From: a virus
Length of the DNA: 64,000 nt
Direction: 5' to 3' (one strand)
Virus record (IMG/VR): IMGVR_UViG_3300042292_000800
Coordinates: 1-64,000 of that record
Position 1 is the stretch's first letter. Each line of letters begins with the position of its first letter. The position numbers and the translations under genes are program-made. The notes under the pieces are model-generated. The model ran no database searches, was not told where the DNA came from, and worked only from the letters and a program-made list of their open reading frames with translations. Shown in pieces: positions 462 through 51,126 of the stretch.

Positions 462-971
462 ATGGAATGTACTGGATGTAGTAAAGGAATAAGCATGTGT
501 CATAACAGACCATGCTTTGGTTCCCCAGAAGAATTTGACAAAATTATTGATGCAGGATTTGCAGACAAACTACGTATTGATTATTGGACAGGTGCACCAC
601 CAGAAACGAGAATTAAACTTGAAGATACTATTGGCGATGGTCCTTTTGTAGATTTACAAAAGATGCTGTATGATTATCAGCAAAAAAATCCTAATCCTCA
701 TGAAGAAGATGTAGAGATGTTGTCCGGTGGTACTGATAATGATAATAATTATCATGCACCATGGATGCCAACAGGAACTTGCAAACTTCTTACTGAAGAT
801 GAGAAATGCATGCTACATGATTCAGGATTAAAACCTCATCAAGGTGCTAATTCATGTTGCAATAAAGAAATCAATGCTGCAGAAGACAATTTGTATTATG
901 CAAACTTATGGGCAACACCAAAAGGTAAAGAAGTGATCGAAAAGTTTAAAAAAACTGTAAACATATCATAA
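462..971 (+). CDS. Cys-rich, YkgJ-like metal-binding protein
   Basis: This 169-residue protein has two cysteine clusters. The N-terminal one (CTGCSKGISMCHNRPC) and the C-terminal one (GTCKLL...KCMLHDSGL..., then CC) recall the YkgJ/UPF0153 family of putative zinc- or iron-sulfur-binding proteins, whose second half usually reads G.C.(F/L)L...C.I.......C. The middle is acidic and probably flexible. The biochemical role of the family is unknown. Its stop is followed after 1 base by the next start. Confidence 0.45.
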   Translation: MECTGCSKGISMCHNRPCFGSPEEFDKIIDAGFADKLRIDYWTGAPPETRIKLEDTIGDGPFVDLQKMLYDYQQKNPNPHEEDVEMLSGGTDNDNNYHAPWMPTGTCKLLTEDEKCMLHDSGLKPHQGANSCCNKEINAAEDNLYYANLWATPKGKEVIEKFKKTVNIS

Positions 972-1689: not shown

Positions 1690-1844
1690 CAGTGTTTTAG
1701 TAGTTTAAGAGGTAAAACAACATTCTATCATTGCCACAGATCAAGTGAGACGCAGAAGTATGAGTATTCAGAAAATGACAATCAGCGACAGAGAGCACGA
1801 TTTACATGTATAGATATCAGGTTCAATTCCTGATCTAAACACTG
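1690..1844 (+). ncRNA. tRNA-like structure with a large insert replacing the anticodon arm
   Basis: The gap between genes holds several tRNA hallmarks. A long closing stem pairs CAGTGTTTTAG (1690-1700) with CTAAACACTG (1835-1844) with one bulged T. A D-arm-like hairpin pairs GTTT (1703-1706) with AAAC (1715-1718) around an AAGAGGTA loop carrying the usual GG. A perfect T-arm reads TCAGG, TTCAATT, CCTGA (1817-1833). ACAT (1720-1723) can pair with ATGT (1806-1809) as the base of an anticodon stem, but about 80 bases lie where a 7-base anticodon loop is expected, so there may be an intron or a non-tRNA function. No CCA is encoded, and the acceptor stem is longer than 7 bp. A degenerate tRNA or regulatory tRNA mimic is also possible. 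Confidence 0.4.
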
Positions 1845-7873: not shown

Positions 7874-8238
7874 ATTTTAACACTGGACAAATAGAAATAG
7901 TTGGTCCTTATGGTAGAGTTTACTTGTACTCACACAACACTGCTAATGAGTTAGTTAGTGTTGTTAGTGATGTACTTTCCAGACAAGTGCGATGGGATGA
8001 TCCAGATTATCTTTCAAGAATGATTTTTTGCAGAATGATACCAAAAAACAAATGGGATGACGAATTAGGATTTGGCATTGGCACTCAACTTTATAAGGAT
8101 GTAAACATGTTAATTACTTTAGACACTGTTCATCAGACAATTAAAATTTCATCAGCATTTGAGACTTACATTACAAATAGCATTACGATGTCTTTTGATG
8201 ATTTTTTAAACAAATATGCAGACAGTGCAGAATTGTAA
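7864..8238 (+). CDS. Hypothetical protein, 124 aa
   Basis: No family recognised. The N-terminus is strand-rich (MEINFNTGQIEIVGPYGRVYLY) and the remainder alpha/beta. It is the last gene before a 127-base gap. Confidence 0.5.
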   Translation: MEINFNTGQIEIVGPYGRVYLYSHNTANELVSVVSDVLSRQVRWDDPDYLSRMIFCRMIPKNKWDDELGFGIGTQLYKDVNMLITLDTVHQTIKISSAFETYITNSITMSFDDFLNKYADSAEL

Positions 8239-8365
8239 AATTTTACTGGAAAAAAATGACGCAATCATAGCGTTATAGTGGAAAATATTTTCTCAGAACA
8301 GTCAATTTAAACATTTTACTGGAAATTAATTAGTAGCTTGGTACTTTATTTAAGATGCAGCTACA
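8239..8365 (+). promoter_or_regulatory. Intergenic region with repeated TTTTACTGGAAA and an inverted repeat
   Basis: No gene fits here. The element TTTTACTGGAAA occurs twice, near both ends of the first 90 bases, with a related TAGTGGAAAA between them. Nearer the next start, GTAGCT and AGCTAC form a 6-bp inverted repeat about 20 bases apart. This would suit an operator or a leader controlling the gene at 8366, but no canonical promoter or terminator is clear. Confidence 0.3.
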
Positions 8366-8653
8366 ATGATATACCAATTGCCCAATGGTAAAAGTATCGA
8401 GATGTCGATAGAACAGTACTTAAGAATGACCGATGAGGAGCTTAAAGGACTGGTTGCATATAACTTTGGTGAAGAATTTAATGATCCGTTTATATTTAGT
8501 GTTTTAAAACATGGACCATCTGGTCCTGAAGAAACTGAAGAGATGGATGAAGAAGATTTTACTGAGGAAGAATTAGAAGACCTAACTACAATTCTTCCTG
8601 AAGAAAAGTTATATGATGACGATTACATTGACTACGATAACTTAGAACAATAA
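8366..8653 (+). CDS. Hypothetical acidic protein, 95 aa
   Basis: The second half is almost wholly acidic (EETEEMDEEDFTEEELEDL), like DNA-mimic or flexible proteins, but no family is recognised. The stop TAATG is coupled to the methyltransferase gene. Confidence 0.5.
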   Translation: MIYQLPNGKSIEMSIEQYLRMTDEELKGLVAYNFGEEFNDPFIFSVLKHGPSGPEETEEMDEEDFTEEELEDLTTILPEEKLYDDDYIDYDNLEQ

Positions 8654-39594: not shown

Positions 39595-42500
39595 TTATAA
39601 ACATTTAAGTTTTTCAATAATTTCTTGGTTAGATAATCCTGTAGATTTTAACTGTACAGCCATGTCTGCAAAAGTTTTAGAATACGCTTCTAAAGATTGA
39701 CGTTTACCGCTTTGCTCGTAGAAGTGCTTTACTACATCAAAGGTAACATTAATATTTTGAATATCAAGTTCTAATTGAGTAAGTGGTGCAGATGTTTCCG
39801 GTTTAATAGAATAGTCTTCAAACATGTCTGCAGTTAAACCTTCAGACATTGCTTCTGCAAGATCAAATTCTGACATGTCAACTTTTGCTTTTTTATTTAT
39901 AAGACTCATGTATCGTTTAGATTGTTCAATACTAAATCCAATTGGACTAAGTGTATTAGTTGTAAGTTCCATTGGTAATGCAACATATTTTGCAGCGTTA
40001 CCTGTAGTTCTATATTCACCTACACCTGCAATAGAATTGATAATAGATTTACCAAAACTCTTATTACCTATTTCTTCATCAACACCTTGTAACAAATAAG
40101 TAGTGGATCCAAGTTTTAACATAACTGGAAACTTAAACTTATTTTTATCATCTTTATCTTTGAAGATGTTTAACTTTTCACCTACAGCCATTACTGCTTG
40201 AGAAGTTGCTTCAGGAATGCTATCAGCACCTTTCATGTTAATAACAATTTCTTCAAGTTTACCAGAAGTAAGTCTATCAGTAAGTAAAAATCCTTTTTTA
40301 TCTGCAGTAACAACTAATCCTAAAATATTTCCAACAATTTTATTTGCAATGTCAATTCTTTCTTTTGCATCTGTTGTTTGGAAATTAATGTTTTTCATAA
40401 ATTTAGATGCATAATCTGCAGACTCATTGTATGAAATATTTTTAACACCTTTGATTTTCTTATTACTAACTTCTTTTGATGCACCATGCGCCATTAAAAC
40501 AAACAAATCATCAAATAACTTGTACACTTGTTCTTGAGTAGTTGTTGACTCATCGCCAATAAATGATTTAATTGCATCAATTAATTCTTTTTTATTACCT
40601 TGAGTACTCTCAATTGCTTTAATAAAGTCTTCTATGTTTTTAGACAATGGTATCTGTAATTCAGCAGGTAGATATTGTAAAAAAGATCCAGATTTATATT
40701 GCAACCCTGTTCTTGCAAGTTCATGATAAAATAGTTTTTTCATAAACAAGTTTTCTTTTTTATACAATACATACGCATCATTCGAAATACTATCAGCTAA
40801 TTCACCAGCAATTTTTGCTTTATTTACCATTTCCAAAGTCTTTTCTTGAACAGGTTGATTGGTTGTAGTAAATACTGTTGCTGTATTGTTGGATACTTTT
40901 AAGTATTGTAAGAACTTATTATCAGGATACAGATCCTTCATTGCATCAAGTTCTTTATCTAAAGAATTTTTAAACCAGTAATCTGCAGTAAATGTTTCAA
41001 TCAAGTTTCTGTCATCTGCGTCAAAGTTTGCTTGCATCGAGGCGTTAGTACTTTTTCTGCTTCCAGGAAGACTTAGTTGATATTTACGCAAAGCAACAAA
41101 ACTTGTCATAATTTTGGCAATGTTAGATGGATCTGTAAACACAGTATCAAACAAGTTTTTAATTGGTTGGAAGAAAGACGTTCTTTCTAAGAATATTTTA
41201 GAAGATTGCTCTTTTAAATCATCCATTGATTCAGTAAGTGGAACCCACACTTGTTTTCCATTAAATAATTTATCGCTGGATTCTACTGTAAATATAGATT
41301 CACCATCACGTAACTGATTAATGTTTTTATACAATTTGTCAAAAGATACAAAAGTCGGATTAAGTTTTTTATACAAATCAACTATTGCACCTGCATTTCG
41401 TATCTTCCATGCTTGTTGTGATTGTTCTTTGTATAATTGTAACAAAATCAATTTTTGTGCTTCATTTGATAGTGCTGTTTTAACACCTCCAACATAAGCT
41501 GATACTTCATATCCAATGTCTTCAGTAGTAAGAACATTGTTCTCTAATCTGTATTCATCAAGTGGAGTTTGTTTAAAATCAATCATTAAGTTGTCTTTGT
41601 TAATTTTAACATTAACAGCATATGAATCTGGTGCAATTAGACCTGCATCAATTAGTTCATTTAACAATTTTCTATCACCATTGGTTTTTACAAATTTTTC
41701 AATTTGTTTTCCAATCCTGTCATTTAAAAACAAATACTCTGTCGAAATTGATTCACTAATTGCAAAACGAGATGCTTGAACTTCATTTATAGCATTTCTT
41801 ATTTCAGGAATAAAGTTAAATCCAAATGCAAATGCAGGATCTAATCCGATTCCAATCATCGCAAGAGTAACACCAGTATTTATTTCATTCATTTCTAATG
41901 CAGCAGGAATAGGTTTTTTCATACCGTCTGCAGCAATACCTAATACAATACCATTAAGTTCAATTACACGCTGACCATTTTTGTTTATTGCACCAAATTT
42001 AAAAAGATTGTTTTCAGTTATTTTAGTAGTACCATCTGCTTGCAAATCGTTGCTAAAAAATTTCCAAACAACATTGTTAGAATTTAGTTCTAATTCATAT
42101 TGACTTGCAAGTGCTAAGAATTTTTGTAATGACGCTGCAATACCAATCATATCTTTATAAGCAGAACCTAAATATTTAGACTCAATAATAGATGTAATAG
42201 TATTTGGATCAGACTTAGGTCCAAAATTTTCAAGATCCCTACCGTAGCCTTCTACAATACTTTCGAAGTATTCTGTAGAAGATTTAGCGTGTATGTACAA
42301 GTTTTTAAACACTGCCTCATTAGAAAGAATATTAATCTTTGCATCCAAGTTATTATTTTGGTGTATAGGTAATACAGACAAATGATTCACAATGTTACTA
42401 TCAAAGTTTGCTTGATCAACTGGTAAACCATATTTTTCAAAAACTTGTAATGCTGCTTCAATTCTTACAGCTCCATCTACAAGTGTTAACAATCTTCGTT

Positions 42501-45500
42501 TTTCTGCACGTACTTTATTACGTTCCTGATATGTTTCGTCAAGTTCATTTTTCAAATCAAAATGTTCTTTACCAAATTTTCTACGATTTGCTTTTGCAAC
42601 ATAGTCATTAGAATCATTTTCAGTATCACGTTTTGCTTGAACAAATGCTTGTCTACTTACTTCTTTTTCTGATTTAATGTCTACAATATCTTCTTCTAAA
42701 TCTGATTCGTAACTTTCAAGATCATCAATTACACCTGCAGTTAACGCTTTGATATAATCTTCCTGAGTATAACCCATTCCGTACATTACCTCAAGTGCAT
42801 TTGCAGTTATAACAAGCTCTTTAGATTCTAAAATTTCTTTTCTTTTTGCTTTGATTAATTTTTTAAAGTTTTCATCATTAGCCATGTAATGAATGTACTC
42901 TATAAATTTACCTTGTGCAGGAGATTTGTAAACATCATAATTACCATATTTTGCATAATCACCTGCCGCATTTATATAATGCGCATATGTTTGACCATAT
43001 AACGAGTCAACGTCAAAGTCAGATCCTGCAAGTAAGTGTATAAATTGTGGTACGACAATAGTGTTCATGTTAGAACTATCCACGTAGTCTACTACTTTAA
43101 GTACAATCATTGAACGCTTATCTTCAGTTGGAATACGAAGAGCAAACATTTCTCTAAGATTTTCCATAAAGAAATCTTCTTGCTGCTGACTTCTAAAAAA
43201 CTGCTTTGGTAAAATACATTCAACAAAGTATTTTTTACTAATTAATTCTCCATTAGAATCATATTTAGCTTCAATACGTACACCTAATGGTCTACTTTTT
43301 ACATTAGGATATCTTTCTGGATTGTTTTTGTAATCTTCAGTTGTAACAACTTCTCCATCTTCATTTTCTAATACGTCAAGTCCAAATGAAGAAACGTGAA
43401 TATTTTTAAATCCAGAACCTTTTTCATCAGTTACATGTTTACTGTAAAGCGAAAAGAAATAGTATTCTAACATAGATCTAATACCTGGAAGGTTAGGACT
43501 ATGAACAGGTTTACCAGAAGCATCTACATCAAATAGTTTTAATACTGATGCCGGTGCATTCTGTGTTTCAAGATTTTCTCTAATCAAATCAAATACTTTT
43601 CCTAAATCAAAGTCTTCACCTTTACGCATAAAGTGTTTTAATGACTGCAGATTAGAATCAGCAATATCATAAAGTGACTCTTGATATTTAAGAAGAACAT
43701 CACCTAATTGGTTCATTGCTTTTCTTTCAGAAGAAGACATTACCGTTCCGTCTTCAGCGTGACGCTTTTCTGCAAGTTGTTCAATGTATTTTAAATCTGC
43801 AGGTAATAATATTTTACCTTGTACAGAAAAACGTGCTGTGTCGTGTACGCCAGAAGTTTCAACCTGAAGATATTTATCTTCATTGTTTACTCTTAATGAT
43901 GACAAATTTAATGGAAGATATTCTTCAGCTTCATGTCCAAAGAAATCAACAGGAAGTTTTGTAGCATTTTTAGATGCTTCAGTATCCATTAACTGATCTA
44001 TATTGTGATACTCCATAGAGTTTAAAATCTTGTGAAGTTTTACTCTATTAGGAAGTGGCACATAATATGCATGAATTTTTACATATGTGTCTTGAATACT
44101 TTTTTCTAAATCTTCAATAGTAGTATCAAATTCTCCTGTATCATTAATTTTGTGTGACTCTTGTATTTGATTACGTAAACTATATATGTACATGTATTTA
44201 GAATGTAAATCGTCATACACTTGATCACGAGTTTTACCTTCCGGCACAATCAATCTACTCACGTCATTTCTATCAATATACGCTTCTGATTGTTTATGAT
44301 ATACATTACGAGAAGCAGTAACAGTTTTCTTAGGATTATTTACTACTTTGTTTTTCTCCATGTTTCGAACTTCTTCTTCAGTTAGTTCGCGATATTGTTT
44401 TGCAATAAGAGAACTTAATATTTCAGGAGTAAGTCTTCCTAAAGCATCATGCATATCTGCTTGATGAAACAATGTAGAAATACTTTGACCATCAAATACT
44501 TTTTGATTAAGTTTAAAGTTTCTATAAATGTAATCACGCACAGCATCATCAGTAATTTGAATATCATTTAATACTTCTTGAGGATTATAAAATGGTCCAT
44601 ATTCTGGATATTTATCATTTATGTATCCTTCAATAGTATTAAGATAAGTAACAGTATGTTTACCTGCTTTCATTGTACTACCAGACGCAAGTAATTTTTT
44701 ATTACGTTTTGTAGAATCAATACCGTCTTTAACATTCATTGCCTTATCACCTAAGAATAATTCATTAACCATTAACGAGTTATACCATTGATTAAAGAAA
44801 TAATCAGCAAGTAATCCGTTCAAGTCACTGCGAGATTGTAATTCAGCTCTTACATCATAATTTGGTTTTGTACCAGCATATACTGTAGTAGTACTTTGAT
44901 CAGGTCTACTGTCAATTTTTAATTTGTCTGCAATTAAACTTGAAGTTAAATATCTAAGGGGTGGCTGTTTTGTTTCAAACACAATAGGATTTCCTTCAAC
45001 ATCAGTAATAGTTTTTCCAGTTGCTGGATCTTTTTTAAGAGCTTTTACTGTTTCTTCATTTTCTTTTACAACACCTAAATTTTTTAATGTATTTATATAC
45101 GTGTTTAATTCTTGTAAAGCATAGTTGTTTAGTCCTTCACGTAAATCTGCTAAAGTACTTTCATCAATGTCTTCAAAATTTATATTTTTATCTTTTGCTA
45201 AACCTATTAATGTTTGTGTTAAAGTATCATTTTCAGGAGCTGCAAAAAAGTATGGTAAGTAATTAAAGTTATATGCTCTTAAGTTTTCAGATTCAGTGTC
45301 TGCTTCTGTCACATTTTCTTTACTTAATACACCATTGTACTTGTTAATTATTCTATTTGATTTACCAGAATCAAAGTTTGATTTGTTATCAACTCTACTG
45401 TTCCATTCTTTTTTAATTCTGTTAAATTCTTGTTTTACTTTGCCTTCAAGATCTGCAACAATTTTTAAATGTTTTCCTTCTTTTAAAAGACCTGTTTTAT

Positions 45501-48500
45501 CTGCATAAGGTTTGTAGATAGAAGTAATTAAAAAGTTTGTCTGAGATGCCTCAAGTGTGTCAAAAGTACGCAAGAATGTCTGGAATGATGTACTAACATC
45601 TTCTGGGTTCCCATCTTCATCTAATTTTGTTTCAGTGGATGATACAGTTGTTCTTTGCAAAAATGATAAAATACTCATTACATGGAATGATTGTTTATCA
45701 AGTTTACCAAATGTTTTACCATCTTTGTATGTCTGATTATTAAACTGAGCCACTCCTCCAAATAAAGACACTCTCATGTTGTCCATTAAAAGCTGTGCTT
45801 TTTTTGCATCAGCTGTGTCTTTACCGGCAAGCAAGTCTGCAAACAATGGATTATCTTTATAAAAATCTTTTAAGAAATCATTATAATAAGGATCTTTTCT
45901 TAATGTGTTTTCTAAACCTGTTCTTCTAAAAGCTTGAGCAGTTGAAATCAGCGGTGTGTATTTTGTATAACGATATACTGGTTTACCAGCAGCATTTCTT
46001 ACAACACTTGGTCTATCAGTAGCGTCATATTTTAATATATATTTTTGAAATTTGTAAGCAATACTAAAAAAACGCTTGAAGTTATCATTGTTTTCGTCAA
46101 GCATTTTACCAAATGCATTTGAAGTAATAGAATCATTTTTAACAGTATTGTATATTGCTCTTATGTCATAGAACAAATCTTTTTGTAAAAACGCTTTATC
46201 AGCAATAAGAGAAGCATTAGCATCATAATGTAAAAGTGTTTTTTTATCTATTTGAGATAATCCATTATTATTATTGTCTATTTTATCAATTGCTAAAATT
46301 GACATTCTTATTAATGATTTTGGTAATTCAATACCGACACCTTTGAAGGCATTGTATAAATCAAAAGTAAGAGTTTCTAAATCATTATTTGCTTTTGCAG
46401 CACTACCAAGAATTATCTTTTTATTAATAATTGTGTTTGATAATTCAATCAATCTGTTTACAGATGCTAAGTATTCAGGATCATTTCTTTTTTTAGCATG
46501 AGTGGTAATCATTGAAGCAATCATATTACTTCTTTTATTTTTTGAATCCATTTTTACAATAGTATCTCCTAATGTATAGTTTTCAATATTATTACCTTCT
46601 TCTTCAAATACTCCTGTTTTTAATCTGGCAATCATCATAAAATATTCTGTTTCAGTACCGTGAAGTACGTCAACAAACATGTTATATAATTGTCTGTTAG
46701 AAGATGGATTACCATTTTCATCCATCCCGGTATAATCTTTTAACTGATTATATACAGCTTGTAAATCTGCAGCATCGTTAAATTTACCATCTTCTCTGTA
46801 AACATCAGCAGTAACTTGTATCTGATTAATAATGTTGTCTACAGATACATCAGATGTGATTTTTAATAAAGTACCATAAATACTTTCTCCATCAATTACA
46901 CGTGGAAAAGTTATACCTAAATCTTCTTCTTTTTCATAATTGATAATAGCAAGAAATCTTCTGATTTGTCTTGGCGCTGAATCAAGTCTGTTGTGTTCAC
47001 CAAATCCTTCATCGATGTTTACGTCATCAGATATTTCTTGACCATCTTCGTAGTCTTGATCTACTTGAGATTTTTTCTCATTTTCTCCAGCAAGTTCTTT
47101 TAATAAAAGTCCTTTATCAAGAGTTTCACCAGTTCCGTCTAATATAGAATATAACTCTTGTGATTTTTTCTTAACAAGTTTTTTTAATTTTTCAAGAGAT
47201 ACTTGTCCAAGATCGTTGTTTAACGGATCGGATTCATACTGCAGTATTTTATTTGGTAATATTCTTTTGTCATATGCAGCATTACCAGAGTTGTTTAAAT
47301 CATAAATTGTTTCTCCAGTTGCTCTGGCTCCTAACATAAATCGATATTGTGAAATAAGATTACCTTTTGTTTTAATAAGTTCTTGTACTCTGTTTGGATA
47401 CTGTTCTGTATTTGGATTTTTTTCAATTAATCTATCAAGGTTGTATACTTTATCAAGAATTAATCTTTGTGCTGTTTTAAACTTTTCTTCAAATGTTTGT
47501 GCTGATGTGTTTTCAATAACATATTTTGTCACCATGTTTACTAACTGACTTTGATCAGATGCACTTAATGGCATTGCTTGTTGACTAACTCCAGTTGCAG
47601 ATGTTTTATCTTTTACAATTACTTTTAAACCATCAATTACTTCATAAGCAACTTGACCATCATATAAATTTGACTGAATTTGCTTGCTACTATAGTAACC
47701 TCTTTGAATGTCTTTGTATGTACTATCAACAAGTTTACCTCTTTGAGTAAACATATCAATTAGTCTTTTAAGCATTTCGAATAGCTGTGCTACAAGACCT
47801 TGAGGTTTTGTATTTTTATTCATGTAGTTTTGGAAACCATCTGCAAGAATTTCTTCAGCTTTTAACTGAAACATTTTCTCATAATCATATACATAGTTTC
47901 TTTCACTTGCAAATTTTTTCAATGCTGCAGGTGTAAATGCTTTTTTGTATTTTTTGTTTGATGATACTGCATCAATAAGTTTTGCTCTTTGTTCTGGAGA
48001 CATTAGATATCTAAACACACCATGAAATGCCTCATGGTATACTACACCTTTTGACAATATAGAATTATTCAAATAGATAACTCTATCTTTAAACATACCA
48101 AGTACAGTTCCATCAATTGCTGCTAAATCAACAATGCTTGCAATATCTTCTGTTGATATACCAAACTGTGGTAAATTTTCTTGCAACCACTGAACAGAGT
48201 TTTGTCTTTCTGCTTCTGTTTCAGTTTGCACCTCAGTGTCAGAAATAGAAAACACATCAATTTCTGGAATATCATCGTTTACGTCAATTTGTTCTGTAGT
48301 AGTTCCTTCTGCGTATTCTGCAGATGGTAATGGTTGACTTACTGGTATATTTTCAATCGGATGATTTGTAACTTCTAATGGTTCTACGTTTGCAACAGGC
48401 ATGTTAGTTGCAGATGGAGATTTAGAAGTAATAACAAGTTTTTTTACAGGTATAGTTTTAATATCTAAACTACTTAGGCTTTTATCGTAGTTTTGTCTTG

Positions 48501-51126
48501 CTTGTGTTTTATTATTATTTGCAAATTCAATACGCGGAATGTATGCTCCTTCTTCATTAACATCTACAACTAAATGTTTAGGATCTGGAAAATCATTCAT
48601 AAAGTTTTCAGTAAACCCTTCATATTTTTTACCAACTACTAATAGCTTATCAATTACTCTTTCAATAATTATTTCAGAAAACTTTTGTTGTTGTTTTTTA
48701 ATTTCGTCTACAAGAGCAACTATATTTTCAGATGGATTTTCTTCTTTAGATAATTGATTTACTAATGAATAGAATTTTGCAAGATCTTTTTGTTTTGTAA
48801 GATCCAATTCTGAAAATATAATGTTTTCATTAATTACTTTTGTAACTAACGGACCTCCTCTTAAAGCAGCTGCTAAAGTTTTTATGTCTTTTTCAGGTGA
48901 TAAAATAGTTGTACCATCTGCTGCAAACATTGGTCTAAAAGAAAAATTAAAATCTGATTTAAGTTCTTTATCTCCCATGAAACCGTATTTGCCTGTACTA
49001 CTTACAGGTCTGACTTCAACTTGTAAAAATCCTTCAGCGTCACTTGCAAAATTTACATATAATTCCAAGTTATCATTTTTAGATGCAAACTTTTTAAAAG
49101 CGTAAACATTTCTATTAAAATCTTGCAACAGAGCTTTTTTATTTGGAGAATTTAATACATCAGCCAAAGTTGTCATAAATGTAGCAAACCCTTCTTCTTG
49201 TGATAATACATATACAGGTCGTACAACTCTAAAACCATATGTACGGTTGTTGTTAAAACGAATAATTATGTTTGTAGTTGTTTCAACATATTGATTTTTA
49301 AGTATATTGTTTTTAATATACTCATCAGTAAGTTTTATATTAGGATCGAAATAAGAAGTCAAATATGCATCTTGTGTAACTTTATCAATAACTCCACCGT
49401 TTTCATCTTTTATAATAATACGCTCATTAGCACCTAAAGTATTGATTAAAGTAAACTTGTTTAATTTATCTTTATCAGGAAATTTTCCAGTTTTTTTATC
49501 AAACTTGTCTTTGATTTTGCTAAATGCAAATACAACATTGCGCTCTTCTTCTTTGATTATATTACCAGCATTATCAATTGTTCCAATTGTCAACTTGCGA
49601 GAAAGATTAGGTTCAGACTCAATTACTTCAGATAAGTTTTGTCTTGTCTCTTTACCAAAAGTTTGTGTGCCAATGTTATATTGTGAAAAAAATTCTTTAG
49701 TAACATCTATAGAAGTTACATCATCTGAGAATTGATCTTCAATACTGTTTGTTAATTGCTCTTTAAATGTTTTATATACTTCATGAGCATTTTTTATTGT
49801 AAGTAAATCATCTTCAGTTAATTCATCTTGACTTTTATCTGATAATCTTTTAATAGATAATTCTTTAACTTTTGCAAGATGCACAGGATTTGAAAAGTCT
49901 ATTTTTTCTGTAGTGTTATCACTATTTAAGAAAACATAGTTGTCAAGTGGATACAAGTAAAATTTTTCACCGGTTCCAATTATTTCACCCATCAACGCAA
50001 ATTTACTATCTGCTTTCTGTGGTCTTGCAACAGTAATAACTGTTCCTTTAGAAGTAGATTTTAAATAATTAATTTGAGTCTCATTCTCAAATGTTTCATA
50101 TGTTCTATTACCAAGACCTTTGTATTGTGGATTTGCAGCAAGTCCCTGTATTCTCTTTAGACGTTCATCACCAACAGTACTTAATTGTACAGCAATTATC
50201 CGTACACCAGCTTCTGGGTTGTCCATTTTTTTAAGCTTATCTTCAATTTTATCTTTAAGATAAACAGTATTTTCTACAGGTTGGATCTTAAAATTAGATG
50301 TAATAGTGTCTTCAAAAAATTCTTGTTTACCAGTGTTACTATTAGAGTAATCATCGTTACGTGCATTTTTTGTAGAAAGTATATCAATTTCATCAAGTTG
50401 AAATTCGTTACCATCTTCTGTCATAATAAACAAACCTTCTGGTTTAGCTATTGCCTCAAGCATTTGACCATTTTTCAAAGTAACAAGTACATTGTTTAAT
50501 TCTGCAAGAGATGCAATATCACGCAATGATATGAAATCAGATTTTTTATCTAATGATTCTATAACAGAATCAATTCTTGCTAATAAAAATTCTTTCTGAG
50601 AATCAGTAGTATTTAATTCACGAATAACATCTTTTAATTCTGAAGTTATACTTTTTAATACTTCAGCTCTTTCTTCAAGACTTGCAAACTCATGAGTGTT
50701 AAAATAATTTTTTATGGCAGTAAGCACACCATTTGATCCTGTTAAATCATTACCGGTGATTGTATTCTTTTTAGAAAGTGCCTCTATCTTTTTTTCAATA
50801 ACTTCTGCTTTTAATGAAGGTGCTTTTTTAATAGTGTAAAGATTGCTTACAGCTGATAGAAACGCATCCGGTTCAGAAAGTAACACTTTTGCTTCTGCAA
50901 TTTTTACAGCATTACCAACTTGATAAAATGATTTATCAAGATCATTTAAACCAATGTATATCTCTGATATTGAAAATAAAGAAAGTGATTTCTCATTGTT
51001 TGAGAGACCACTCTTTAAAATAAACTCCGCTGTTTTATCAAAGTTTCTATATATCTCAGGATTTAATTTAATAAGGTTCTTTACAATTGATACATATTGA
51101 CCAGTTGTTATTTCACACTGTTTCAT
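39595..51126 (-). CDS. Giant virion RNA-polymerase polyprotein with zinc metallopeptidase (3843 aa)
   Basis: One continuous reading frame. Residues 1-890 are uncharacterised; about 895-985 is a Pro/Glu/Thr-rich linker. A zincin-like metallopeptidase follows: VYHEAFHGVF (H1031, E1032, H1035) and KAEEILADGF (E1091/E1092), the third ligand position. Further on, ALRIPTEDKRSM, VPQFIHLLAGS and then DFDVD (D2703, D2705, D2707) reproduce the beta-prime-like catalytic motif (R.PT ... ADFDGD) of RNA polymerase; crAss-like phage polymerases carry DFDID there. The last 1100 residues are unknown. Probably packaged, processed (perhaps by the zincin) and injected to transcribe early genes. Size far exceeds the about 2200 residues of the characterised crAss-like enzyme. 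Confidence 0.8.
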   Translation of the reverse strand: MKQCEITTGQYVSIVKNLIKLNPEIYRNFDKTAEFILKSGLSNNEKSLSLFSISEIYIGLNDLDKSFYQVGNAVKIAEAKVLLSEPDAFLSAVSNLYTIKKAPSLKAEVIEKKIEALSKKNTITGNDLTGSNGVLTAIKNYFNTHEFASLEERAEVLKSITSELKDVIRELNTTDSQKEFLLARIDSVIESLDKKSDFISLRDIASLAELNNVLVTLKNGQMLEAIAKPEGLFIMTEDGNEFQLDEIDILSTKNARNDDYSNSNTGKQEFFEDTITSNFKIQPVENTVYLKDKIEDKLKKMDNPEAGVRIIAVQLSTVGDERLKRIQGLAANPQYKGLGNRTYETFENETQINYLKSTSKGTVITVARPQKADSKFALMGEIIGTGEKFYLYPLDNYVFLNSDNTTEKIDFSNPVHLAKVKELSIKRLSDKSQDELTEDDLLTIKNAHEVYKTFKEQLTNSIEDQFSDDVTSIDVTKEFFSQYNIGTQTFGKETRQNLSEVIESEPNLSRKLTIGTIDNAGNIIKEEERNVVFAFSKIKDKFDKKTGKFPDKDKLNKFTLINTLGANERIIIKDENGGVIDKVTQDAYLTSYFDPNIKLTDEYIKNNILKNQYVETTTNIIIRFNNNRTYGFRVVRPVYVLSQEEGFATFMTTLADVLNSPNKKALLQDFNRNVYAFKKFASKNDNLELYVNFASDAEGFLQVEVRPVSSTGKYGFMGDKELKSDFNFSFRPMFAADGTTILSPEKDIKTLAAALRGGPLVTKVINENIIFSELDLTKQKDLAKFYSLVNQLSKEENPSENIVALVDEIKKQQQKFSEIIIERVIDKLLVVGKKYEGFTENFMNDFPDPKHLVVDVNEEGAYIPRIEFANNNKTQARQNYDKSLSSLDIKTIPVKKLVITSKSPSATNMPVANVEPLEVTNHPIENIPVSQPLPSAEYAEGTTTEQIDVNDDIPEIDVFSISDTEVQTETEAERQNSVQWLQENLPQFGISTEDIASIVDLAAIDGTVLGMFKDRVIYLNNSILSKGVVYHEAFHGVFRYLMSPEQRAKLIDAVSSNKKYKKAFTPAALKKFASERNYVYDYEKMFQLKAEEILADGFQNYMNKNTKPQGLVAQLFEMLKRLIDMFTQRGKLVDSTYKDIQRGYYSSKQIQSNLYDGQVAYEVIDGLKVIVKDKTSATGVSQQAMPLSASDQSQLVNMVTKYVIENTSAQTFEEKFKTAQRLILDKVYNLDRLIEKNPNTEQYPNRVQELIKTKGNLISQYRFMLGARATGETIYDLNNSGNAAYDKRILPNKILQYESDPLNNDLGQVSLEKLKKLVKKKSQELYSILDGTGETLDKGLLLKELAGENEKKSQVDQDYEDGQEISDDVNIDEGFGEHNRLDSAPRQIRRFLAIINYEKEEDLGITFPRVIDGESIYGTLLKITSDVSVDNIINQIQVTADVYREDGKFNDAADLQAVYNQLKDYTGMDENGNPSSNRQLYNMFVDVLHGTETEYFMMIARLKTGVFEEEGNNIENYTLGDTIVKMDSKNKRSNMIASMITTHAKKRNDPEYLASVNRLIELSNTIINKKIILGSAAKANNDLETLTFDLYNAFKGVGIELPKSLIRMSILAIDKIDNNNNGLSQIDKKTLLHYDANASLIADKAFLQKDLFYDIRAIYNTVKNDSITSNAFGKMLDENNDNFKRFFSIAYKFQKYILKYDATDRPSVVRNAAGKPVYRYTKYTPLISTAQAFRRTGLENTLRKDPYYNDFLKDFYKDNPLFADLLAGKDTADAKKAQLLMDNMRVSLFGGVAQFNNQTYKDGKTFGKLDKQSFHVMSILSFLQRTTVSSTETKLDEDGNPEDVSTSFQTFLRTFDTLEASQTNFLITSIYKPYADKTGLLKEGKHLKIVADLEGKVKQEFNRIKKEWNSRVDNKSNFDSGKSNRIINKYNGVLSKENVTEADTESENLRAYNFNYLPYFFAAPENDTLTQTLIGLAKDKNINFEDIDESTLADLREGLNNYALQELNTYINTLKNLGVVKENEETVKALKKDPATGKTITDVEGNPIVFETKQPPLRYLTSSLIADKLKIDSRPDQSTTTVYAGTKPNYDVRAELQSRSDLNGLLADYFFNQWYNSLMVNELFLGDKAMNVKDGIDSTKRNKKLLASGSTMKAGKHTVTYLNTIEGYINDKYPEYGPFYNPQEVLNDIQITDDAVRDYIYRNFKLNQKVFDGQSISTLFHQADMHDALGRLTPEILSSLIAKQYRELTEEEVRNMEKNKVVNNPKKTVTASRNVYHKQSEAYIDRNDVSRLIVPEGKTRDQVYDDLHSKYMYIYSLRNQIQESHKINDTGEFDTTIEDLEKSIQDTYVKIHAYYVPLPNRVKLHKILNSMEYHNIDQLMDTEASKNATKLPVDFFGHEAEEYLPLNLSSLRVNNEDKYLQVETSGVHDTARFSVQGKILLPADLKYIEQLAEKRHAEDGTVMSSSERKAMNQLGDVLLKYQESLYDIADSNLQSLKHFMRKGEDFDLGKVFDLIRENLETQNAPASVLKLFDVDASGKPVHSPNLPGIRSMLEYYFFSLYSKHVTDEKGSGFKNIHVSSFGLDVLENEDGEVVTTEDYKNNPERYPNVKSRPLGVRIEAKYDSNGELISKKYFVECILPKQFFRSQQQEDFFMENLREMFALRIPTEDKRSMIVLKVVDYVDSSNMNTIVVPQFIHLLAGSDFDVDSLYGQTYAHYINAAGDYAKYGNYDVYKSPAQGKFIEYIHYMANDENFKKLIKAKRKEILESKELVITANALEVMYGMGYTQEDYIKALTAGVIDDLESYESDLEEDIVDIKSEKEVSRQAFVQAKRDTENDSNDYVAKANRRKFGKEHFDLKNELDETYQERNKVRAEKRRLLTLVDGAVRIEAALQVFEKYGLPVDQANFDSNIVNHLSVLPIHQNNNLDAKINILSNEAVFKNLYIHAKSSTEYFESIVEGYGRDLENFGPKSDPNTITSIIESKYLGSAYKDMIGIAASLQKFLALASQYELELNSNNVVWKFFSNDLQADGTTKITENNLFKFGAINKNGQRVIELNGIVLGIAADGMKKPIPAALEMNEINTGVTLAMIGIGLDPAFAFGFNFIPEIRNAINEVQASRFAISESISTEYLFLNDRIGKQIEKFVKTNGDRKLLNELIDAGLIAPDSYAVNVKINKDNLMIDFKQTPLDEYRLENNVLTTEDIGYEVSAYVGGVKTALSNEAQKLILLQLYKEQSQQAWKIRNAGAIVDLYKKLNPTFVSFDKLYKNINQLRDGESIFTVESSDKLFNGKQVWVPLTESMDDLKEQSSKIFLERTSFFQPIKNLFDTVFTDPSNIAKIMTSFVALRKYQLSLPGSRKSTNASMQANFDADDRNLIETFTADYWFKNSLDKELDAMKDLYPDNKFLQYLKVSNNTATVFTTTNQPVQEKTLEMVNKAKIAGELADSISNDAYVLYKKENLFMKKLFYHELARTGLQYKSGSFLQYLPAELQIPLSKNIEDFIKAIESTQGNKKELIDAIKSFIGDESTTTQEQVYKLFDDLFVLMAHGASKEVSNKKIKGVKNISYNESADYASKFMKNINFQTTDAKERIDIANKIVGNILGLVVTADKKGFLLTDRLTSGKLEEIVINMKGADSIPEATSQAVMAVGEKLNIFKDKDDKNKFKFPVMLKLGSTTYLLQGVDEEIGNKSFGKSIINSIAGVGEYRTTGNAAKYVALPMELTTNTLSPIGFSIEQSKRYMSLINKKAKVDMSEFDLAEAMSEGLTADMFEDYSIKPETSAPLTQLELDIQNINVTFDVVKHFYEQSGKRQSLEAYSKTFADMAVQLKSTGLSNQEIIEKLKCL

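Follow-up and report, generated by a model that had tools for sequence, protein, structure and literature searches.

The purpose of tRNA genes in large phages is debated, and odd phage tRNA genes are easily dropped because they score below the cut-offs of tRNA finders. Known RNAs that combine a tRNA-like part with other sequence include tmRNA (Rfam RF00023, about 370 nt), in which a tRNA-like end domain is joined to a long, poorly structured stretch in the place of the anticodon, and the tRNA-microRNA transcripts of murid herpesvirus 4, in which a virus-encoded tRNA-like part is joined to non-tRNA cargo. The phage element that we describe here resembles both in outline. Unlike tmRNA, it has a D stem, is 163 nt long, carries no conserved tag frame and has no match to RF00023; in the herpesvirus transcripts, which belong to a different virus world, the cargo lies downstream of the tRNA-like part, whereas in the phage element it replaces the anticodon arm. 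Within the accessible text of the literature surveyed, which is largely non-subscription and includes PMC7886860 and PMC10136315, we found no description of an element of this kind.

The window, by which we mean the whole analysed stretch of 64,000 nucleotides, is positions 1 to 64,000 of IMG/VR virus record IMGVR_UViG_3300042292_000800 (72,002 bases). We call its phage crAss-like because a 2,801-residue part of its giant protein (39595-51126) has 86 matches among 50,697 phage records, and the matches listed are crAss-like, several of them annotated as RNA polymerase. The element occupies positions 1686-1848 of the plus strand, between plus-strand ORFs 1119-1679 and 1900-2262, and no ORF of 50 codons overlaps it. 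Its extent is set by a terminal helix, or clamp, in which 1686-1700 pairs with 1835-1848, with changes on both sides in the homologues. A preliminary description, made from this one sequence, had seen here an acceptor-like stem of about 10 bp with a bulge; the bulge stands (one U), but the helix is 14 bp long. The inner seven bases of its 5' arm correspond to the 5' strand of the tRNA acceptor, and the two bases that follow (1701-1702; UA in the window, UG in the homologous copies L004 and G037) to U8 and N9. The D arm at 1703-1718 (stem GTTT/AAAC, loop AAGAGGTA with its GG) and the T arm at 1817-1833 (TCAGG-TTCAATT-CCTGA) are both present in the sequence as first described, and the D loop carries the equivalents of A14, A15, G18, G19 and A21. 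A sixth T-stem pair is possible (A1816-T1834), a single U separates the T arm from the 3' clamp strand in the window, and CCA is, as reported, not encoded. Between the two arms, the anticodon arm and variable loop are replaced by an insert at 1719-1816 with invariant ends, AAC and AGATA, and a variable, poorly structured middle. The anticodon region is indeed expanded; its insert, put earlier at about 80 bases, measures 98 nt, about 75 above a normal tRNA, and the span from D arm to T arm is 98, 109 and 98 nt in the three copies where about 23 is normal.

Taken alone, a single copy is weak evidence, barely above chance. Searching the window against Rfam at the cut-off gave no match, and a permissive search with the tRNA model (RF00005) gives it 24.4 bits against a cut-off of 29; the E of 0.0037, which applies to 211 bases, scales to about 1 over the whole window. 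With the same model the L004 copy scores 15.3 bits, and an Rfam scan up to E 10 matched the element neither to RF00023 nor to intron families. ARAGORN makes no call here, whether or not introns are allowed, the strand fold of the whole element has z = -0.94, and minimum-free-energy folds of all three copies form the D arm only when it is imposed. No match to a sigma-70-type promoter or to a terminator was found at the locus, which is weak as evidence because Bacteroidetes promoters differ. The single sequence fails a chance test; the case rests on relatives, and once homologues are counted the element is clearly real.

An exact search for the 3' pattern brought up no phage but this one (L001, with no difference in 3,344 compared bases). 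The neighbouring ORF 1119-1679 leads to L004, where a copy lies right after that gene's homologue and is 84% identical over 159 of the 163 query bases (E 3.2e-48). A covariance model built from the window and L004 (R1) had a single strong hit among 49 records of DNA-polymerase relatives, G037/L148 (63.2 bits, E 5.8e-12), and within the window a second model, built from three sequences (R2), finds the element only (161.2 bits; next best E 1.2). Across 107 distinct relative records, most of them fragments and the other tested ones lacking the ORF 462-971 gene, neither model found a strong copy beyond G037 (1 of 107). The 16-mer of the D arm is present in 27 stretches of the viral collection. Four of these belong to the element, in L001, L034 (one contig with L004), L148 and L166 (both with the G037 form); the remaining 23 have no T arm. 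There are thus only three distinct copies, and of these the window and L004 are close.

Several other candidates were rejected. R2 has weak matches in 7 records of one set of 43 and, leaving G037 aside, in 6 of a set of 49; among five alignments inspected, from four of these loci, the L314/G047 pair are tRNA-like genes of another family, and the arms are not seen in the remaining three. A gapped pattern gave 129 matches, the best-ranked 40 of which are mostly two adjoining ordinary tRNA genes. Candidate L035 is without a T arm and looks like coding sequence, and the short matches in G016 (14 bases, within what we take to be an HNH endonuclease-like stretch) and in G005, G009 and G010 (15 bases) lie in other contexts and have no arms.

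The locus is the same in all copies, while the genes on its 3' side differ. It is marked by a conserved neighbour gene of 169 aa (462-971, plus strand; partial match to PHROG 19147). Of 93 additional records tested, three (G001, G037 and G110) contain a homologue of this gene. All four records with this gene, the window included, have the element; as G037 and G110 share one form, they represent three distinct phages, and the other records, which lack the gene and many of which are fragments, are not counted as absences. In G037 the element comes directly after the 462-971 homologue and before a gene for a 232-aa phosphoesterase-like protein, and in L004 it comes after the 1119-1679 homologue and is followed by genes absent from that place in the window. 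The window's own gene at 1900-2262 shows 74.6% identity to 62 Flavobacterium 'elemo' phage records and is found in 29 viral-contig loci. An inverted repeat with 14-nt arms (86% complementary, 4-nt gap) lies at 1501-1532, inside ORF 1119-1679.

How strongly the parts of the element are held can be judged from neutral divergence: fourfold-degenerate sites are identical at 180 of 317 positions (57%) between the window and G037 and at 62 of 85 (73%) between the window and L004. The D arm is identical at 16 of 16 bases in all three copies, and a 23-base T block (AGATATCAGGTTCAATTCCTGAT) is identical but for one L004 base, which leaves a U.U mismatch in the T stem; the T arm proper is unchanged in G037. 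A D arm with GG and a T arm with a TTCRANT loop are thus found in every copy, as are all the bases that we take, in tRNA numbering, to make the tertiary contacts U8-A14, A15-U48 (given a 6-bp T stem), G18-U55, G19-C56 and U54-A58. Because the D and T stems hardly vary, they give no covariation signal of their own. In the inner clamp, both sides have changed in 5 of 8 pairs, and 96.2% of cells pair; when the clamp partner is slid, 38-62% of cells are paired. Pairing fails in a T-stem cell of L004 and in a clamp cell of G037. With three sequences, 4 of 500 shuffles covary as well. The window and L004 by themselves, with changes on both sides in 3 of 15 clamp pairs, are matched by 63 of 500 shuffles, so two sequences alone are insufficient. 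The outer helix of G037 has a different sequence and still pairs at 15 of 16 positions. The preliminary description had named, as an outcome that would count against it, arms that are neither conserved nor covarying among related phages; that check has been run and did not refute it, and the structural half of its suggestion of a tRNA mimic is borne out. Read from these alignments, the pattern of conservation shows selection on what would be a tRNA-like, non-decoding shape. We are confident that the locus holds a selected RNA with a tRNA core and a replaced anticodon arm; it gives the impression of a specialised mimic, not of a broken tRNA.

Now we consider the insert. Between the window and L004, 79 of 90 aligned columns are identical; between the window and G037, 272 of 500 shuffles align as well as the real pair, and the sequence has been replaced outright. 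All three inserts fold worse than their dinucleotide shuffles (z of +1.59, +1.33 and +1.72, with 288, 278 and 294 of 300 shuffles folding as well or better); in a control, 2 of 60 random window segments reach a z of at least 1.25. Poor folding together with replacement in G037 makes the insert appear to be an exchangeable module that is kept open. A coding role was rejected: the one frame that stays open across the window's insert is interrupted in L004 by indels (10 and 1), which leaves no conserved reading frame, and G037 has an unrelated insert. As antisense to the start regions of its own phage, the insert forms a best duplex no better than shuffled sequence in all three phages (shuffles as good in 32 of 60 for the window, 25 of 60 for L004 and 14 of 60 for G037).

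We propose that this crAss-like phage encodes the element as a small noncoding RNA, with a tRNA as its origin or its model. Upon expression, its D and T arms would fold in three dimensions into an elbow of the tRNA type, a helix of 14-16 bp would clamp both ends, and a single-stranded loop of about 100 nt would stand in place of the anticodon arm. Elbow and clamp would likely yield a stable RNA recognisable to tRNA-binding host proteins. The exposed loop, which would be exchanged between phage lineages, is likely the working part, binding a host RNA or protein as its partner and acting on the host through it. For this mechanism, a scaffold that displays a working loop, we consider the odds to be roughly even.

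A competing account, contained in the earlier suggestion that the mimic decoys host tRNA enzymes, places the function in the elbow: the RNA would titrate a host enzyme that grips it, the proposed targets being RNase P, an enzyme that modifies the T or D loop, or a defence or toxin protein that cuts tRNAs, and the loop would only bar use in translation. That the D and T arms are frozen in sequence beyond pairing needs agrees with such a decoy, and the long clamp may be expected to hinder normal end processing. However, a pure decoy leaves unexplained why the loop is kept between the window and L004, at 79 of 90 columns against a fourfold identity of 73%, and to an anticodon nuclease the element would offer no anticodon stem-loop. 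We regard this account as possible but improbable.

We think it considerably less probable that the element is an intron-containing tRNA, from which removal of the insert would leave a working tRNA, as the preliminary description had also entertained. Other phages and a few bacteria do have tRNA genes with inserts of 25-100 nt that ARAGORN accepts when an intron is allowed, and by eye each of the three copies allows an anticodon stem with four of its five pairs to be drawn. But exons that form a normal tRNA were not found: under default settings ARAGORN called none of 260 artificial splices a tRNA, and the 249 of 260 that it accepted at a relaxed 60% threshold are uninformative. A 7-bp acceptor stacked on a 5-bp T stem is absent from all three copies, since the acceptor pairs only with a bulge or an extra unpaired U (or with a 6-bp T stem) and the helix then runs on to 14-16 bp. 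The full 5-bp anticodon stem is missing, and in G037 the segment 27-31 pairs better locally. The insert itself is unstructured, matches no Rfam intron and is too short for a group I intron.

Decay of a former tRNA gene, the other origin first considered, would account for the score below the Rfam cut-off, the missing CCA and the expanded anticodon region. Yet three phages share an unchanged D arm and, apart from a single base in one of them, the T block, despite a fourfold identity between the window and G037 of 57% only, the helix changes in compensation, and synteny is kept while neighbouring genes are exchanged; we therefore hold decay to be very unlikely. A miniature mobile element with terminal inverted repeats, to which the 12-nt perfect inverted repeats at 1686-1697/1837-1848 might point, is scarcely credible, given that the repeats change from phage to phage around fixed interior arms, where a transposase site would lead one to expect the reverse, and that the element has one copy in the record and the same locus in each phage.

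Many other tRNA-like genes with expanded anticodon regions were met, both in relatives and in unrelated large phages, some candidate rows being merely two adjoining tRNAs. Phage tRNA genes in L202 (5585-5740, plus) and L233 (2737-2890, minus) both carry about 80 extra nt in the anticodon loop. The two inserts have the motifs AAATGGGAGAA and GTCCGAAGCG in common, with closing stems of different sequence, and may be a short intron or ribozyme. Minus-strand tRNA genes above the Rfam cut-off in L281 (286-417), L278 (594-742) and L230 (3064-3195), from a Clostridia MAG, Peptoniphilus ovalis and a viral contig, have anticodon inserts of 40-65 nt, and in the relative L139 (177-287, minus) ARAGORN reports a tRNA-Phe(GAA) with a 35-nt anticodon-loop insert. 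A tmRNA gene (RF00023, 71.3 bits; ARAGORN tag DEKGFIVVAN), adjoined by a tRNA-Met, lies at 8096-8535 on the minus strand of L296 (G073), a relative with a 90% identical DNA polymerase. Among the loci examined, a group of the form AGTCAGG...CCTGACT has 13 distinct members of 95-139 nt; its acceptor and T arm are fixed by the search pattern, the D arm also recurs, and the middles, of 46-89 nt, differ in length and sequence. The group is found in L184, L245 (the richest contig, with up to seven), L224, L197, L213, L248, L142, L138/L325 and L314/L321. One AGTCAGG sequence and one other insert-bearing tRNA had no match in the 50,697 phage records.

The element shares with tRNA (RF00005) its D arm, T arm, U8/N9 spacing and tertiary-contact bases. 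Unlike tRNA, with its 5-bp anticodon stem and 7-base loop, it has no full anticodon stem or anticodon loop (at most four of five pairs can be drawn by eye), it falls below the family cut-off, and its terminal helix has 14-16 bp where the tRNA acceptor has 7. Since other large phages also have tRNA-like genes with expanded anticodon regions, it may belong to a wider group. If such RNAs are common, phages could have a class of regulators or counter-defence molecules that has been overlooked, and host proteins that bind the tRNA elbow would be directly testable as targets. The AGTCAGG genes of other large phages resemble the element in that the tRNA arms are kept and the middle, variable in length, is swapped; they differ in having an ordinary 7-bp acceptor, in often occurring as several copies in tRNA arrays, and in a middle that is mostly structured (z < 0 in 11 of 13). 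It is a tentative and rather doubtful thought that the two families are independent cases of one host-aimed strategy, in which phages would repeatedly have made tRNAs into carriers, with the frozen elbow as a handle and the anticodon arm as a slot for exchangeable RNA cargo.
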